DNA from: Deltaproteobacteria bacterium
GTDB lineage: Bacteria; Desulfobacterota; Syntrophia; Syntrophales; Smithellaceae
Length of the DNA stretch: 35,814 nucleotides
Assembly (NCBI GenBank): GCA_025355175.1
Contig: JANYAF010000137.1
Location: 1-35,814, forward strand
Direction of reading: 5' to 3'
The notes below the pieces were generated by a model that did not search any database, was not told the origin of the DNA, and saw nothing but the letters and a program-made list of their open reading frames with translations. This document shows, in pieces, positions 14,032-21,539 of the stretch. Position numbers and translations under genes: made by a program. Position 1 is the stretch's first letter; each line of letters starts with the position of its first letter.

Positions 14032-14053
14032 TTCCCTTAGAAAACTTGTTGAA

Positions 14054-14098
14054 TCCCGCTTAAGCGGGACGAGCGTTCATTCTCCGTAGCGAGCTCGC
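14054..14098. repeat. Double-palindrome repeat module, copy 1
   Basis: The perfect palindrome TCCCGCTTAAGCGGGA (14054-14069) is followed, 35 bases start to start, by the perfect palindrome GCGAGCTCGC (14089-14098). The same pair with the same spacing recurs at 14220-14264. This matches REP/BIME-style intergenic repeats rather than a single terminator, because no T-run follows. Confidence 0.8.
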
Positions 14099-14120
14099 GA
14101 TATAATGACGTTCATTTCAT

Positions 14121-14157
14121 ACCTCGACAGCGAGCTCGCGAGGTGGTTGATTAAATC
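14121..14157. repeat. Second GCGAGCTCGC hairpin with conserved 28-base unit
   Basis: ACCTCG (14121-14126) and CGAGGT (14139-14144) flank the GCGAGCTCGC palindrome at 14130-14139. The 28-base unit 14130-14157 matches 14255-14282 with two mismatches. It therefore belongs to the same repeat family but lacks the CCCGCTTAAGCGGG half. Confidence 0.75.
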
Positions 14158-14219
14158 TACAAGAAAATATTCATCTATTTATATATCATCTACATCATAA
14201 GGTCAAAGTGTGCTTTTAA

Positions 14220-14282
14220 TCCCGCTTAAGCGGGACGAGCATCAATTATCCGCAGCGAGCTCGCGAGATGGTTGATTAAGTC
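14220..14282. repeat. Double-palindrome repeat module, copy 2
   Basis: The palindromes TCCCGCTTAAGCGGGA (14220-14235) and GCGAGCTCGC (14255-14264) are spaced as in copy 1, with a CGAGC lead-out common to both. The tail GAGATGGTTGATTAAGTC matches the tail of the element at 14130. Three related units within 230 bases make a small composite array. Confidence 0.8.
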
Positions 14283-14609
14283 AATCCTAAAACGCCGGGC
14301 ATGTCGGATCAAAACCATTCCAATTTAAAGGACCCAACTGGAAAACTTTTTGTTCAGGAAATGGTTTGGGGTCGCTAAATCACTCGCCGGCAGAAAACAA
14401 TCCCTTCCTGAAGAGGTGACATTTCGGTCGTGCCCCCGTGACAAAAGCGTCGCCATCTTCTCTGCCCACCGCTGTATGCATTTGGCGAGTTGTGCACAAT
14501 GCGGGCCATCTTCGTCTATGACATCAGTGTCGTTTTGTTGTCTGTTGTATTTCTTCATCCGATTAAGTGATTCCAATGATAACGGTGGGTTGTGTCAAAA
14601 AAAAGCAAT
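14283..14609. other. Intergenic region between repeat array and ATPase promoter
   Basis: No gene can be supported here. A minus-strand frame (14325-14576) begins with TTG or an internal ATG, has no good ribosome site and no recognisable motif. A plus-strand frame overlaps it and is no better. The DNA could hold activator sites for the sigma-54 promoter just downstream, but I see no clear paired inverted repeats. Confidence 0.4.
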
Positions 14610-14625
14610 TGGCATGGCTGTTGCT
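14610..14625 (+). promoter_or_regulatory. Sigma-54 (-24/-12) promoter of the N-ATPase operon
   Basis: TGGCATGGCTGTTGCT matches the RpoN consensus TGGCAC-G-N4-TTGCW at all defined positions but one (T for C). The invariant GG (14611-14612) and GC (14623-14624) are exactly 10 bases apart. Transcription would start near 14636, giving a leader of about 110 bases to the atpD start. It points towards atpD and no other gene. RpoN promoters need an enhancer-binding activator, which is not encoded nearby. Confidence 0.65.
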
Positions 14626-14743
14626 ATTATAACAAAACATTATAAAGAGGCTGTCCGCTTCTTTTAATAGTCGTAATAAAGAAGGAAAATTATGCTTCAT
14701 TAATGGGAAATACTCCCATGAAAAAATAAAGCGAGGTGAATGA

Positions 14744-16502
<1,759 letters not shown>

Positions 16503-16560: not shown

Positions 16561-16893
16561 ATGGTTGAAATAAAACGAACATCTGATTCACGGCGCCGGA
16601 AGATGGCGGATCATTTCACCGAAAAGGTCGCCCAAAGAGAGGCTCTGCGAATCAGGGGACTCAAACATAAAAACGAAACAGTCTGGTTTGGTTTGGGGAT
16701 GTTCGGCATTATTGGATGGGCGGTGGCTATTCCCACGTTGATTGGAGTCGCCTTGGGACTCTGGATTGACCGGACATGGCCCAGTCAGTATTCCTGGGCT
16801 CTGATGTTTCTCGTCCTCGGCGTTATCGTCGGATGCATTAATGCCGCCTACTGGGTCAGAAAAATACGTGGACAGATTATAGAAGAGGATTGA
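16561..16893 (+). CDS. atpQ: N-type ATPase accessory membrane subunit AtpQ
   Basis: This 110-residue protein is related to the small AtpI/AtpZ-like membrane proteins. After a basic, hydrophilic N-terminus (1-40) it has two hydrophobic helices (about 42-68 and 78-98) with a WIDRTWPS linker and a basic end. AtpQ occurs only in N-ATPase operons and is proposed to help assemble the c-ring or move ions. Its place between atpC and atpR is the standard order. GAGGATCAAAT precedes the ATG. Confidence 0.88.
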   Translation: MVEIKRTSDSRRRKMADHFTEKVAQREALRIRGLKHKNETVWFGLGMFGIIGWAVAIPTLIGVALGLWIDRTWPSQYSWALMFLVLGVIVGCINAAYWVRKIRGQIIEED

Positions 16894-16894
16894 A

Positions 16895-17197
16895 ATGAAG
16901 ATGAACGCGATGTTTATCATTGTCCTGATGTTTGCCGTGGGACTGGCTCTGGGGGCTTTCTACTTTATCAGTCTGTGGCAGACCGTACAAAGGCTGGGAC
17001 AGACCCAAAGCCGCGCGCGACTGCTGGTAATCAGTTATGTATTGCGTCTGTCGGTTGTTTTAACGGCATTTTACTTTCTTCTGAGGGACGGTCATTGGGA
17101 GTGGCTGGTGGCGGCCATGATCGGATTTGTGGTGATGCGCAAAATCTTCACTTATCATTTTGGGCCGCAAAAGACGATGGAAGCCGTTCATGAATAG
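16895..17197 (+). CDS. atpR: N-type ATPase accessory membrane subunit AtpR
   Basis: This 100-residue, very hydrophobic protein has three predicted membrane helices (about 5-28, 42-62 and 68-85). R51 in VLRLSVV lies inside the second helix, a buried charge that is notable for a membrane protein. It starts one base after the atpQ stop, with GAGGATTGAA as ribosome site. AtpR is the second N-ATPase-specific protein; its biochemical role is not established. Confidence 0.85.
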   Translation: MKMNAMFIIVLMFAVGLALGAFYFISLWQTVQRLGQTQSRARLLVISYVLRLSVVLTAFYFLLRDGHWEWLVAAMIGFVVMRKIFTYHFGPQKTMEAVHE

Positions 17198-17232: not shown

Positions 17233-17958
17233 ATGGAAGTCGTATCTCTCAACCAAATCAGCCCGGATCAGGTGATTATCTGGAGTTGGAGGTTTATTAT
17301 CCTCAATGCGACCATTCTCTATACATGGTTGGTGATGGCCATCCTGGTCGTCGGCTCCTGGCTGATCACACGCAATCTTTCTTCGGAAATGCATGCGTCG
17401 CGCTGGCAGCATTTCCTGGAGGTGGTTATTTCCATCATTCGGGGCGAAATCAGCGAGATGACGAAAAAGGGTCCGGATCATTATGTTCCCCTGGTTGGCA
17501 CGCTCTTTTTGTTTATCTGTGTGTCTAATGTGTTGGTGATTGTGCCGGGGTTTGTTGCGCCAACGTCGTCCATGACGACCACTGCGGCGCTGGCTACCTG
17601 TGTATTTATCGCTGTTCCCTTCTATGGAATATCGCGAAATGGCGTTTCTCATTATGTGAAAGAATATTTTCAACCCACGTTTATTTTTTTCCCGTTCCAT
17701 GTCATGGGCGAAGTGTCCCGGACGCTGGCTCTGACCGTTCGTCTTTTCGGCAATATTATGAGTCATGAAAAAGTCATCGGGATTTTGCTGGCGGTCACGC
17801 CCTTTCTGTTCCCGGTCGTCATGCAAATCCTGGGGCTTTTAATCGGTGTGATTCAGGCCTACATCTTTGCGATCCTTTCCATGGTTTATATAGCCTCCGC
17901 GCTTAGCGCCGAGGATGATTATCCAACAGAAGTAAAGAAAGAAGGCTCTCCAGCCTGA
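17233..17958 (+). CDS. atpB: N-type ATPase F0 subunit a
   Basis: This 241-residue ion-channel stator subunit has five to six membrane helices. The essential stator arginine is R170 in LTVRLFGNIMSHE, and the last long helix carries Q208 and Y210 (GVIQAYIFAILS). Polar residues E160 and R163 at the start of the R170 helix are kept. The ribosome site is AAAGGAG. It sits before atpE and atpF, as in all F-type operons. Confidence 0.95.
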   Translation: MEVVSLNQISPDQVIIWSWRFIILNATILYTWLVMAILVVGSWLITRNLSSEMHASRWQHFLEVVISIIRGEISEMTKKGPDHYVPLVGTLFLFICVSNVLVIVPGFVAPTSSMTTTAALATCVFIAVPFYGISRNGVSHYVKEYFQPTFIFFPFHVMGEVSRTLALTVRLFGNIMSHEKVIGILLAVTPFLFPVVMQILGLLIGVIQAYIFAILSMVYIASALSAEDDYPTEVKKEGSPA

Positions 17959-17985: not shown

Positions 17986-18252
17986 ATGGACAGTGTAAGT
18001 CTCGTCGCGATGGCCTCGATTATCGGTGCAGGTTTGGCAATGGGGATTGGTTCAATCGGTCCCGGTCTGGGTATGGGGCAGGCAATCGCCCAGGCTCTGT
18101 CAGCGATTGCTCAACAGCCGGATGAAAGAAACTCTTTAACCCGAACACTGTTTGTCGGATTGGCCATGATAGAATCCATTGCCATCTACTGCTTTGTTAT
18201 TTCCATGATTCTGATTTTCGCCAATCCTTTCTGGGGTTTCATTATAAAGTGA
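17986..18252 (+). CDS. atpE: N-type ATPase F0 subunit c (rotor ring)
   Basis: This 88-residue hairpin forms the membrane rotor ring. Helix 1 contains GSIGPGLGMGQA, the loop is QQPDERNS, and helix 2 carries the ion-binding carboxylate E63 followed by S64 and Y68. E-S-x3-Y matches Na+-binding c subunits such as that of Ilyobacter. However, the residue aligned with their helix-1 Gln (Q32 there) is M30 here, and a Gln appears two positions later as Q32. Most N-ATPase c subunits I recall have Glu at that site. Ion specificity is therefore unclear. A strong AAGGAGGAG precedes the ATG. Confidence 0.95.
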   Translation: MDSVSLVAMASIIGAGLAMGIGSIGPGLGMGQAIAQALSAIAQQPDERNSLTRTLFVGLAMIESIAIYCFVISMILIFANPFWGFIIK

Positions 18253-18264
18253 GGGGGATGATCC

Positions 18265-19035
18265 ATGCATATCGACTGGTTTGTTTTTTTAGCGCAAATC
18301 TTTAATTTCCTCCTGCTCATGTATTTGCTGAAACGCTTTCTTTACGGGCGGATTATCAAGGCCATGGATGACCGGGAAGCAAAAATTGCCGCGTGTTTTG
18401 CCGAAGCCGAACGGCTGAAAGAAGAAGCCAGCGAGGCAGTCGAGCTTTATGAAAAGCGCAACATGTTGCTCGGCCAGAAGAAAGAGCAGATGATCAACGA
18501 GGCAACAATGGCTGCCGATGCCAAGCGCAAGGAGCTGATGGAGAAAGTACGAGAAGAAGTCGATGCGGTTAAAGCGCGCTGGCAGGATATGCTGGTCCGG
18601 GAAAAGGATGCCTTTTTTTATGATCTGCGGCAACGGGCGGCTAAGCAATTATATGCCACGGCTCGCAAGGCGCTCGCTGATCTGGCAGACGCCGATCTGG
18701 ATGACCGGATTGTCGATGAATTCCTCCGGCGTGTCAAAACACTTGATGCCGAAAAAAGCGTTCAGATCCGCAAAGCGATCAGCGGAGTCAACAATCAGGT
18801 CATTATCCAGAGCGCTTTCGATATTTCCGCCTCGAGGCAGGTACAGATTGAGGAAGTCTTGAAAAAGCAGATCACTAACGGTTTTAAGGTCCGTTATCTG
18901 CGTGAGCCGGATATTGTATCAGGCATCGAATTGCGGGTGAATGGGCATAAGATCGCCTGGAGTCTTAATGAGTATCTGGAGACCCTTGTGGAAAATCTGA
19001 CCGAAACGCTCCAGAAAGAGGCGCATGCCACATAA
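18265..19035 (+). CDS. atpF: N-type ATPase F0 subunit b with delta-like C-terminal domain
   Basis: This 256-residue protein is much longer than a usual b subunit (about 160). Residues 1-25 are the membrane anchor, about 30-135 the charged coiled-coil stalk. From about 178 to 245 the sequence resembles the C-terminal domain of the delta subunit: VIIQSAFDISASRQ, then KVRYLREPDIVSGIELRVNG, then AWSLNEYLETL, matching delta's conserved 'G-[IV]-x-[IL]-[RK]-x-[GN]' and 'S-[LV]-x-x-x-[LR]-x-x-L' pattern. A separate atpH is missing from the operon, so this fusion probably supplies the stator contact to alpha. Start ATG follows GGGGG closely after atpE. Confidence 0.92.
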   Translation: MHIDWFVFLAQIFNFLLLMYLLKRFLYGRIIKAMDDREAKIAACFAEAERLKEEASEAVELYEKRNMLLGQKKEQMINEATMAADAKRKELMEKVREEVDAVKARWQDMLVREKDAFFYDLRQRAAKQLYATARKALADLADADLDDRIVDEFLRRVKTLDAEKSVQIRKAISGVNNQVIIQSAFDISASRQVQIEEVLKKQITNGFKVRYLREPDIVSGIELRVNGHKIAWSLNEYLETLVENLTETLQKEAHAT

Positions 19036-19093: not shown

Positions 19094-20662
19094 ATGAATT
19101 CAGAGGTTAGCAAACTGGAAAATCAGGAATTAAAGACCTTTCTAGACGACACGTTTGACACGATGGATAAGGTTCTGGATGGGCAGAATCCTGATCTGCG
19201 GCAATATGAGGTAGGCCAGGTGGAATTTGTCGGACGTGATATTGCCAGAGTCAGCGGTCTGCCGAATATCCGCGCGGAGGAGCTGGTTCGCTTTGCAGGA
19301 AATTATATGGGACTGGTTTTTAATATCGACCCGAAGGAAATTGGCGTTGTTCTTTTGGATCCCAGTGAAAACCTGCAGGTCGGGTCGGAAGTGCAGCGTA
19401 CCAAGCGTGTTCTCGATGTGCCGGTGGGAGACGGGCTTTTAGGACGGGTGGTCGATCCCCTCGGACGGCCGCTGGATGGCCTGGGCGAAGTCAATACGGT
19501 CATGCGCCTGCCGGTGGAAAGACCCGCGCCAGCGGTTATGGACCGCGCGCCGGTTGTCGTACCGCTGCAGACAGGCATCAAGGTGATCGATGCACTGATT
19601 CCCGTCGGTCGCGGCCAGCGCGAATTAATCTTGGGCGACAGAATGACCGGCAAAACGGCCATTGCCATTGATACGATTATCAACCAGAAGGAAACCGGCA
19701 TTATTTCTATTTATTGCGCCACCGGCAAGAAAAGCGCTGATGTGGCCAAGGTGATTGCCGATTTGCGGGATCACGGCGTGATGGGATCATGCATTGTGGT
19801 GGTGGCCACCGGTGAAGACACACCGGGCTTGCAGTTTATCGCGCCTTACGCGGCCACAAGCATGGGGGAATATTTTGTAGAGCGTGGCAGGGACGTTTTG
19901 ATTATCTATGATGATCTGACATCTCATGCACGGGCCTACCGTGAAGTGTCGCTGCTTTTGCGGAGACCTCCCGGACGTGAAGCTTTTCCTGGTGATATTT
20001 TTTATATCCATTCCCGACTGCTTGAGCGCTCCACGCATATGAAGCCGGAATTGGGCGGCGGGTCGTTGACGTCATTGCCGATTACGGAAACAGAAGCGCA
20101 GGATATGTCGTCTTACATTCCGACCAACCTGATTTCCATTACGGACGGGCAGATTTATCTCTCGCCGGTTCTTTTCAGCAAGGGCATTCTGCCGGCGGTG
20201 GATGTCGGTAAATCCGTATCGCGGGTGGGCGGCAAGACGCAATTGCCCGCATACCGTTCCGTGGCGGGCGATCTTCGACTGTCCTACTCGCAGTTTGAAG
20301 AGTTGGAATCCTTCTCCCGTTTCGGCACAAGGCTTGATGAAGCTACGCGCCGCACGTTGGAACGCGGCTGGCGCGTGCGTGAAATTTTGAAGCAGGGTCA
20401 ATACAAACCGCTGCGCGCCTCCGAGCAGATTGCCTCTCTACTTTCTGTTACCGGCGGCGCTCTGGATCTTGTCCCGACGGACAAGATTCGTGAAGTGGAA
20501 AAACACCTGTTGCAAGCCGTCAATGAACAACTGCCGGAATTGTGCAGCCGGATTGAAGCGGGGAAAAAACTGGAAATGGCGGATCGCGACAGCATTATGA
20601 ATAAAATCAAACCGATTATTAAACCTTTTGAAGTGGTTGAGGACGCTAATGCAAACAACTGA
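19094..20662 (+). CDS. atpA: N-type ATPase F1 subunit alpha
   Basis: This 522-residue non-catalytic nucleotide-binding subunit alternates with beta in the F1 head. The P-loop is GDRMTGKT at 181-188, where ordinary alpha subunits have GDRQTGKT, so Q is replaced by M. The [27 protein letters not shown] and [21 protein letters not shown] segments are intact. AGGAGGCGTAGA precedes the ATG. The end overlaps atpG by 14 bases. Confidence 0.95.
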
Positions 20663-21539
20663 GTCCCTGAAAAGAAGAATGAAGAGCGCTGGTGATCTTT
20701 TATCAGTTGTCAAAACGATGAAGGCACTCGCGGCGGTGAGCATACGGCAATACCAGAAGGCGGTCGAATCACTCACCGATTATAACCGGACGGTTGAAAT
20801 GGGTCTGCAAATTGTGCTCAAGGAACGAATGGGCGCAACCCTCAAGAGAAAGGCGTCCTCCATGAAAAGTTTGGGGGTGATTGTCTTCGGTTCCGATCAG
20901 GGCTTATGCGGACAGCTCAATGACCAGATATCTGTTTTTACGCTGGATTACATCAAAAAAACCGGCGTTAAAAAGGAAAAGCGGAAAGTACTTTCCATTG
21001 GCGCCCGCGTCGCCGACTATGTCGAAGATGCCGGACAGCCGGTGGACGAGTTAATGGGTACGCCTGCTTCCACGGCGGGTATCACGCCACTGGTTCAGGA
21101 AATCATCATGATTATCGATGAGTGGCATTTCCGTCAAAACGTTGATCATTTCCTTTTGTTTTATAATAAATATGTCAGCGGAGCGATCTATCATCCCCAC
21201 ATGGTTGAACTCCTGCCTGTCAACAGGGAGTGGCTCAAGGAAATCGCACGAAAAAAATGGGATTCCAAGTCGCTGCCCATTTTCCGGATGGACGGCGATC
21301 AGATTTTTTCCTCGCTAATCCGGGAATATCTTTTTGTGTCGCTTTATCGCGCGTTTGCCGAGTCACTGGCCAGTGAAAATGCCAGTCGTCTGGCGTCCAT
21401 GCAAAATGCCGAGAAAAATATTGAAGAACAGTTGCAGGATCTGCACATGCAGTTTCACCGCACGCGGCAGATGACAATTACCGAGGAACTTCTGGATATC
21501 GTTGCCGGTTTTGAGGCGATGCAGGAAGAGGCATCATAA
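20649..21539 (+). CDS. atpG: N-type ATPase F1 subunit gamma
   Basis: This is the central rotor shaft, 296 residues from the ATG at 20649. I chose that start over an upstream TTG at 20628 because GAGG lies seven bases before it and it begins [17 protein letters not shown], the usual start of gamma. Long N- and C-terminal helices form the coiled coil ([19 protein letters not shown] near the N-terminus and '[24 protein letters not shown]' region split across residues about 250-280). The core has [14 protein letters not shown]. It completes the nine-gene operon. Confidence 0.93.

Follow-up and report, generated by a model that had tools for sequence, protein, structure and literature searches.

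Is the sigma-54-like element in front of the N-ATPase operon of a Smithellaceae bacterium a genuine promoter, and if so, what turns it on? The element lies in a stretch of 35,814 nucleotides (contig JANYAF010000137.1 of assembly GCA_025355175.1), the whole of which is here called the window. An original prediction had placed a near-perfect sigma-54 promoter there and proposed that RpoN and an enhancer-binding activator control the rotary ATPase. Based on comparison with related genomes, we hold with a probability of roughly 0.86 that this is a real sigma-54 promoter of the N-ATPase operon, for which a dedicated two-component pair of the NtrC type would serve as the switch.

The operon and its promoter element

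The operon is intact, runs in the order beta, epsilon, gene 1, AtpR, a, c, b, alpha and gamma, and carries the features by which an N-ATPase is recognized (Table 1). Operons of this type were reportedly described by Dibrova et al. in 2010. An F-type beta subunit is encoded on another contig and shares 53% identity with the N-type atpD product among the matches listed. As for the coupling ion, helix 2 of the c subunit contains Glu-Ser, and the helix-1 Gln that is included in the Na+ c-ring motif seems, by eye, to be Met. The N-ATPase of B. pseudomallei is described as H+ specific in the accessible part of PMC5376962.

Table 1. Coordinates of the features discussed, in the window unless a contig is given.
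Feature	Position	Strand	Remarks
Putative activator site 1, TGACATTTCGGTCG	14417..14430	+	GAC-N6-GTC palindrome; core perfect in 13/16 genus loci; the remaining 3 each have a single core change
Putative activator site 2, TGACAAAAGCGTCG	14439..14452	+	22 bp (two helical turns) past site 1; core perfect in 13/16 genus loci
Putative activator site 3, TGACATCAGTGTCG	14519..14532	+	91 bp upstream of promoter; core perfect in 16/16 genus loci
Sigma-54 -24/-12 element, TGGCATGGCTGTTGCT	14610..14625	+	consensus match, conserved in relatives
Remnant, 3' end of RsbRD_N-like gene, YASLMGNTPMKK and stop	14691..14729	+	12 codons; relatives YMALMGAxPKKK and stop
atpD, N-ATPase beta	14747..16132	+	NCBIfam TIGR03305 alternate F1F0 beta, above cut-off; GTG start
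atpC, epsilon	16122..16502	+	PF02823
N-ATPase gene 1 (atpQ type)	16561..16893	+	PF09527, TIGR02230
atpR, N-ATPase-specific subunit	16895..17197	+	PF12966, TIGR03165
atpB, a subunit	17233..17958	+	PF00119
atpE, c subunit	17986..18252	+	TIGR03322, above cut-off
atpF, b subunit	18265..19035	+	TIGR03321, above cut-off
atpA, alpha	19094..20662	+	PF00006/PF00306
atpG, gamma	20628..21539	+	PF00231
Activator orthologue of the window's genome (L263)	G000 C140:6854-8194		

The place of the element, its GG-N10-GC spacing, its one mismatch and its leader of about 110 bases facing atpD had all been predicted, and the sequence bears out each of them. GG stands at 14611-14612 and GC at 14623-14624 with 10 bases between them, within the TGGCAY-N5-TTGCW context expected of a -24 GG and -12 GC. 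Compared with TGGCACGN4TTGCW there is a single mismatch, T for C, at a position where the sigma-54 consensus usually has Y, so that T is tolerated. No other place in the window matches with 0-1 mismatch. The element is separated by 121 bases from the GTG of atpD (14747), and from this position and an assumed transcript start near 14636, about 12 bases past the GC, the predicted leader is about 110 nt long. The genome encodes one RpoN (single match, C255, E 4.5e-65) and has 17 sigma-54 activator domain matches, some of them weak or partial.

A lone 16-mer match is nevertheless near chance level genome-wide and is weak evidence alone. Perfect sites are expected by chance 0.017 times in the window and 1.4 times in the genome, where three are found, and when one mismatch is allowed the genome has 40 matches against 19 for the reversed pattern. 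The other two perfect sites lie at C123:3242-3257 and C144:13346-13361. A different concern is that a constitutive sigma-70 promoter might mainly drive the operon, with the sigma-54 site modulating or repressing it, since binding of a site by the sigma-54 holoenzyme need not lead to its opening. We consider this quite unlikely, because a crude consensus scan of 14032-14760 found nothing resembling a sigma-70 site in the direction of atpD and one such site on the opposite strand, compared with 1.4 expected in shuffles.

Conservation of the promoter among relatives

Among the matches listed in 99 genomes there are 60 N-type atpD loci, 42 from the family of the window (window included) and 18 from elsewhere in the order, and their upstream sequence was read to 9 kb where contigs allowed. 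G066 contributes two of these loci, while a truncated second atpD of G009 (C38) and a fragment of G082 (C236) were excluded. The atpD matches of G036, G048 and G084 are split or partial; in G084 (L187) and G036 (L188) the match is broken in two, as a frameshift or an assembly error would cause.

In the 1.5 kb upstream of the 42 family loci, TGGCAYGN4TTGCW occurs perfectly in 27 and with at most one mismatch in 39, compared with 0.05 and 0.6 loci in dinucleotide shuffles and 0 and 2 on the other strand. The close relatives agree with the original prediction, as all 16 same-genus operon loci have the site at 0-1 mismatch. When 2.1 kb are read, 47 of the 60 loci (among the matches listed) have such a site. 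These loci share ancestry and their counts are non-independent events; the stronger argument is the contrast with a diverged background. When the 16 genus loci are aligned, all nine core columns of the promoter are invariant (100%) and the palindrome cores described below average 98%, against 58% for the rest.

The remaining 13 of the 60 loci lack a site at 0-1 mismatch. Seven genomes (G023, G030, G055, G059, G066, G073, and G087) retain the activator discussed below despite this; in G030 and G066 a contig end truncates the sequence, and in G059 the palindromes accompany a site with two mismatches. Upstream of the four F-type beta genes checked, the best sigma-54 match has 3 mismatches and the palindrome pair is absent. 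The combination of site and palindromes is likewise found upstream of none of 80 more remote named loci of the N-type and F-type, two of which (L107 and L158) held almost no upstream sequence. Three of the 80 have a one-mismatch site (L088, L118, and L133), and in L088 a palindrome pair lies 2 kb from it, as chance may give.

Tandem palindromes upstream of the promoter

The region upstream of the promoter holds three GAC-N6-GTC palindromes, which we regard as putative activator sites and which are the only perfect TGACANNNNNGTCR matches in the window (starting at 14417, 14439, and 14519). The motif was first spotted in the genus of the window and then sought at all loci as a tandem pair, no more than 1 of the 12 core bases being allowed to differ. 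Such a pair lies 156-394 bp upstream in 47 of the 47 loci that have the sigma-54 site, with a rate of 0.2% per locus in shuffles. Its spacing is 21 bp in 30 loci, 22 bp in 14 and 23 bp in 3, and the consensus of the two palindromes over the 47 loci is YGACATTTAAGTCR and TGACATAAATGTCG. The motif thus recurs in other genera and families, the third site being found mainly in the window's genus. It is this conservation and the linked palindrome array, not the match itself, that place the promoter beyond chance. That the 16-mer is a chance match, as the genome-wide counts taken alone would allow, is extremely unlikely; barring errors in the alignment and the loci, what is seen in the relatives has already refuted it.

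The strict tandem-site pattern matches the window's genome at a single place, the N-ATPase promoter region. A wider regulon is not claimed, as 20 genomes of the genus give 12 strict matches, 9 at the N-ATPase and 3 elsewhere, and the reversed control also gives 3. An IHF site between palindromes and promoter is not supported, since one with at most 1 mismatch is present in 13 of 47 loci compared with 7 expected, and in the window there is none. Palindromic intergenic repeats occupy 14049-14282, between prmC and the activator sites (TCCCGCTTAAGCGGGA twice and GCGAGCTCGCGA three times), and in G006 a similar repeat sequence lies between the promoter and atpD.

A candidate activator and its kinase

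At 24 loci the gene directly upstream of the palindromes encodes an NtrC-type activator of about 450 aa, with a receiver, a sigma-54 AAA+ domain and a Fis-like C-terminus (G020, G021, G026, G027, G029, G031-G033, G035-G037, G041-G043, G045, G047, G048, G052, G053, G059, G062, G072, G085, and G089). In these relatives the palindromes follow the activator gene and precede the promoter, the first sometimes overlapping the stop codon of the activator, and where reading and gene calling reached far enough a PAS histidine kinase gene stands ahead of the activator. The same arrangement, cut by contig ends, is seen in G016 and G038. In G034, G014, G028, G005, and G007 the distance to the activator is 4 to 80 kb, and in other genomes the activator is on another contig. 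The last applies to the window's genome (G000), where kinase and activator form a pair on C140 with reading frames that overlap by 4 bases. Its activator is 68% identical to the orthologue of G035, the next paralogue being at 42%, and among the matches listed each genome has one orthologue at 61-90% identity with the next paralogue at about 43% or lower.

The activator also tends to occur where the N-ATPase does. It is present in 52 of 60 genomes with the N-ATPase vs. 4 of 39 without (Fisher p ~1e-14, a value that ignores shared ancestry; among the matches listed), and in the other families of the order in 13 of 18 vs. 1 of 30 (among the matches listed). Presence was scored by hand; G082 was counted as an N-ATPase genome, and G016 was scored as lacking the activator, though its C-terminal part sits at a contig edge beside the promoter. 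The four exceptions (G003, G039, G040, and G098) have the activator and no N-ATPase among the matches listed.

By eye the C140 protein shows LLDLLMP around the phospho-Asp, GESGTGKEL as Walker A and GITLRQLQRKL as helix-turn-helix (HTH). Pfam finds the receiver and AAA+ domains in the G035 orthologue and gives no HTH match there. In NCBIfam the activator comes closest to AtoC and NtrC, but since the scores of 377-388 bits fall far below the equivalog cut-offs (714 bits for AtoC), it is neither of these. The kinase on C140 has no clear membrane segment (top 19-residue hydropathy mean 1.96), and therefore its signal is probably cytoplasmic. Its C-terminal receiver-like part seems, by eye, to be without the phospho-acceptor Asp (VVSEIRLKG).

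One residue of the activator in the window's genome deserves attention. Its loop reads GVFTGA, where the other 35 of 36 orthologues read GAFTGA. The change A216V in NtrC is reported to cause a defect. According to the available part of PMC2941729, GAFTGA-loop substitutions usually impair activation, most of them severely, and the activator of this strain may hence be weak, altered or miscalled. It could therefore be argued that the promoter is real but that in this strain another activator drives it, for which the 17 activator domain matches offer candidates, or that the promoter is being lost, as the unlinked position of the orthologue and its unique loop might suggest. We regard this as unlikely, since the promoter and all three palindromes of the window are intact, the sister genomes G006, G008, and G015 keep GAFTGA, and the codon differs from that of G006 by a single base that may be an error in a fragmented, partly contaminated assembly (280 contigs, 5.7% estimated contamination).

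Genes between the promoter and atpD

Most relatives have one or two RsbRD_N-like genes between the promoter and atpD, whose products measure about 155 and 280 aa. Similarity of the shorter proteins to RsbRD_N and HisK_N is weak (8/10 and 5/10 members, respectively, at E up to 0.1), the longer protein ends in a hydrophobic, probably membrane, part as judged by eye, and the products match no solved structure. One may ask whether the promoter belongs to these genes and the N-ATPase is merely read through. This is very unlikely in our view, as 11 genomes have no intervening gene and the promoter faces atpD directly (G000, G002, G006, G008, G009, G014, G015, G016, G018, G046, and G050), two of them, G046 and G050, belonging to another genus than the window's. 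The leader of the window holds a 12-codon remnant, which together with its stop resembles the last codons of the gene in G013 and G019 (translations compared by eye) and is part of no intact frame. It thus appears that the lineage of the window lost the gene and kept the promoter, which now faces atpD. Elsewhere in the genome, C185:10304-11223 encodes two paralogues (39-44%) of the lost gene in tandem, and a similar tandem pair is present in most of 11 genomes searched.

Proposed mechanism and comparison with known systems

Taken together, the conserved site, the candidate NtrC-type protein and the palindrome array support the proposal that RpoN and an enhancer-binding activator would control the N-ATPase. 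In the mechanism we propose, a soluble PAS-domain histidine kinase would phosphorylate the REC-AAA+-HTH activator, which would bind the GAC-N6-GTC palindromes, located about 90-190 bp ahead of the promoter, reach the sigma-54 holoenzyme by looping and open the promoter, the operon presumably staying silent without the signal. In the window's genus the pair, whose genes are retained at an unlinked place, would act in trans, promoter and putative activator sites having been kept. A broader scenario, which we put forward tentatively and at somewhat less than even odds, is that the order possesses a demand-driven second rotary ATPase: a dedicated PAS pair would have the operon as its sole strict target in the genome, co-transcribed RsbRD_N-like sensors would tune the signal or the enzyme, and the lineage of the window would have shed the sensors, moved the regulator and kept the switch. 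A candidate activator, its putative sites and a promoter whose start can be predicted make the role and timing of the N-ATPase open to testing, and finding what the PAS kinase senses would tell when the N-ATPase is needed. If control is strictly activator-dependent, a machine that consumes ATP or pumps ions could be kept entirely silent until the cell needs it.

In systems of the NtrBC, AtoSC, and ZraSR type, a -24/-12 promoter is preceded at 100-400 bp by tandem palindromic sites, and a REC-AAA+-HTH activator is encoded beside its kinase. The predicted N-ATPase switch would have the same architecture, but its target would be a rotary ATPase and its activator scores far below the equivalog cut-offs. 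Known N-ATPase operons share the beta-epsilon-X-X-a-c-b-alpha-gamma order, AtpR, and gene 1, and the accessible part of PMC11738941 describes no activator or sigma factor for them; the operon studied here differs by its predicted activator-dependent promoter and, in relatives, by extra leading genes. The original prediction named energy, salt or stress as possible signals; in a cyanobacterium, N-ATPase transcripts were not induced under salt, as far as the available portion of PMC3468840 reports. A mainly open-access literature search gave no joint match for N-ATPase and sigma-54 control, the words co-occurring solely in the reference list of PMC3543383. ATP synthase is not mentioned in the accessible parts of the sigma-54 papers PMC4641369, PMC3162934, and PMC3333781, nor is sigma-54 control of a rotary ATPase found in those of PMC5606693 (Smithella) and PMC8762339 (Chlamydia). 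The nearest parallel is Corynebacterium glutamicum, where SigH controls the F1Fo operon in response to pH, so that an alternative sigma factor likewise stands over a rotary ATPase operon; SigH, however, is of the ECF type, the operon is F-type and no enhancer-binding protein is mentioned in the part of PMC3917460 available, whereas here the predicted factor is sigma-54 and the operon is N-type. The two-component sigma-54 mechanism is thus of a known kind, and the rotary ATPase as its target appears to be new, within the open literature searched.
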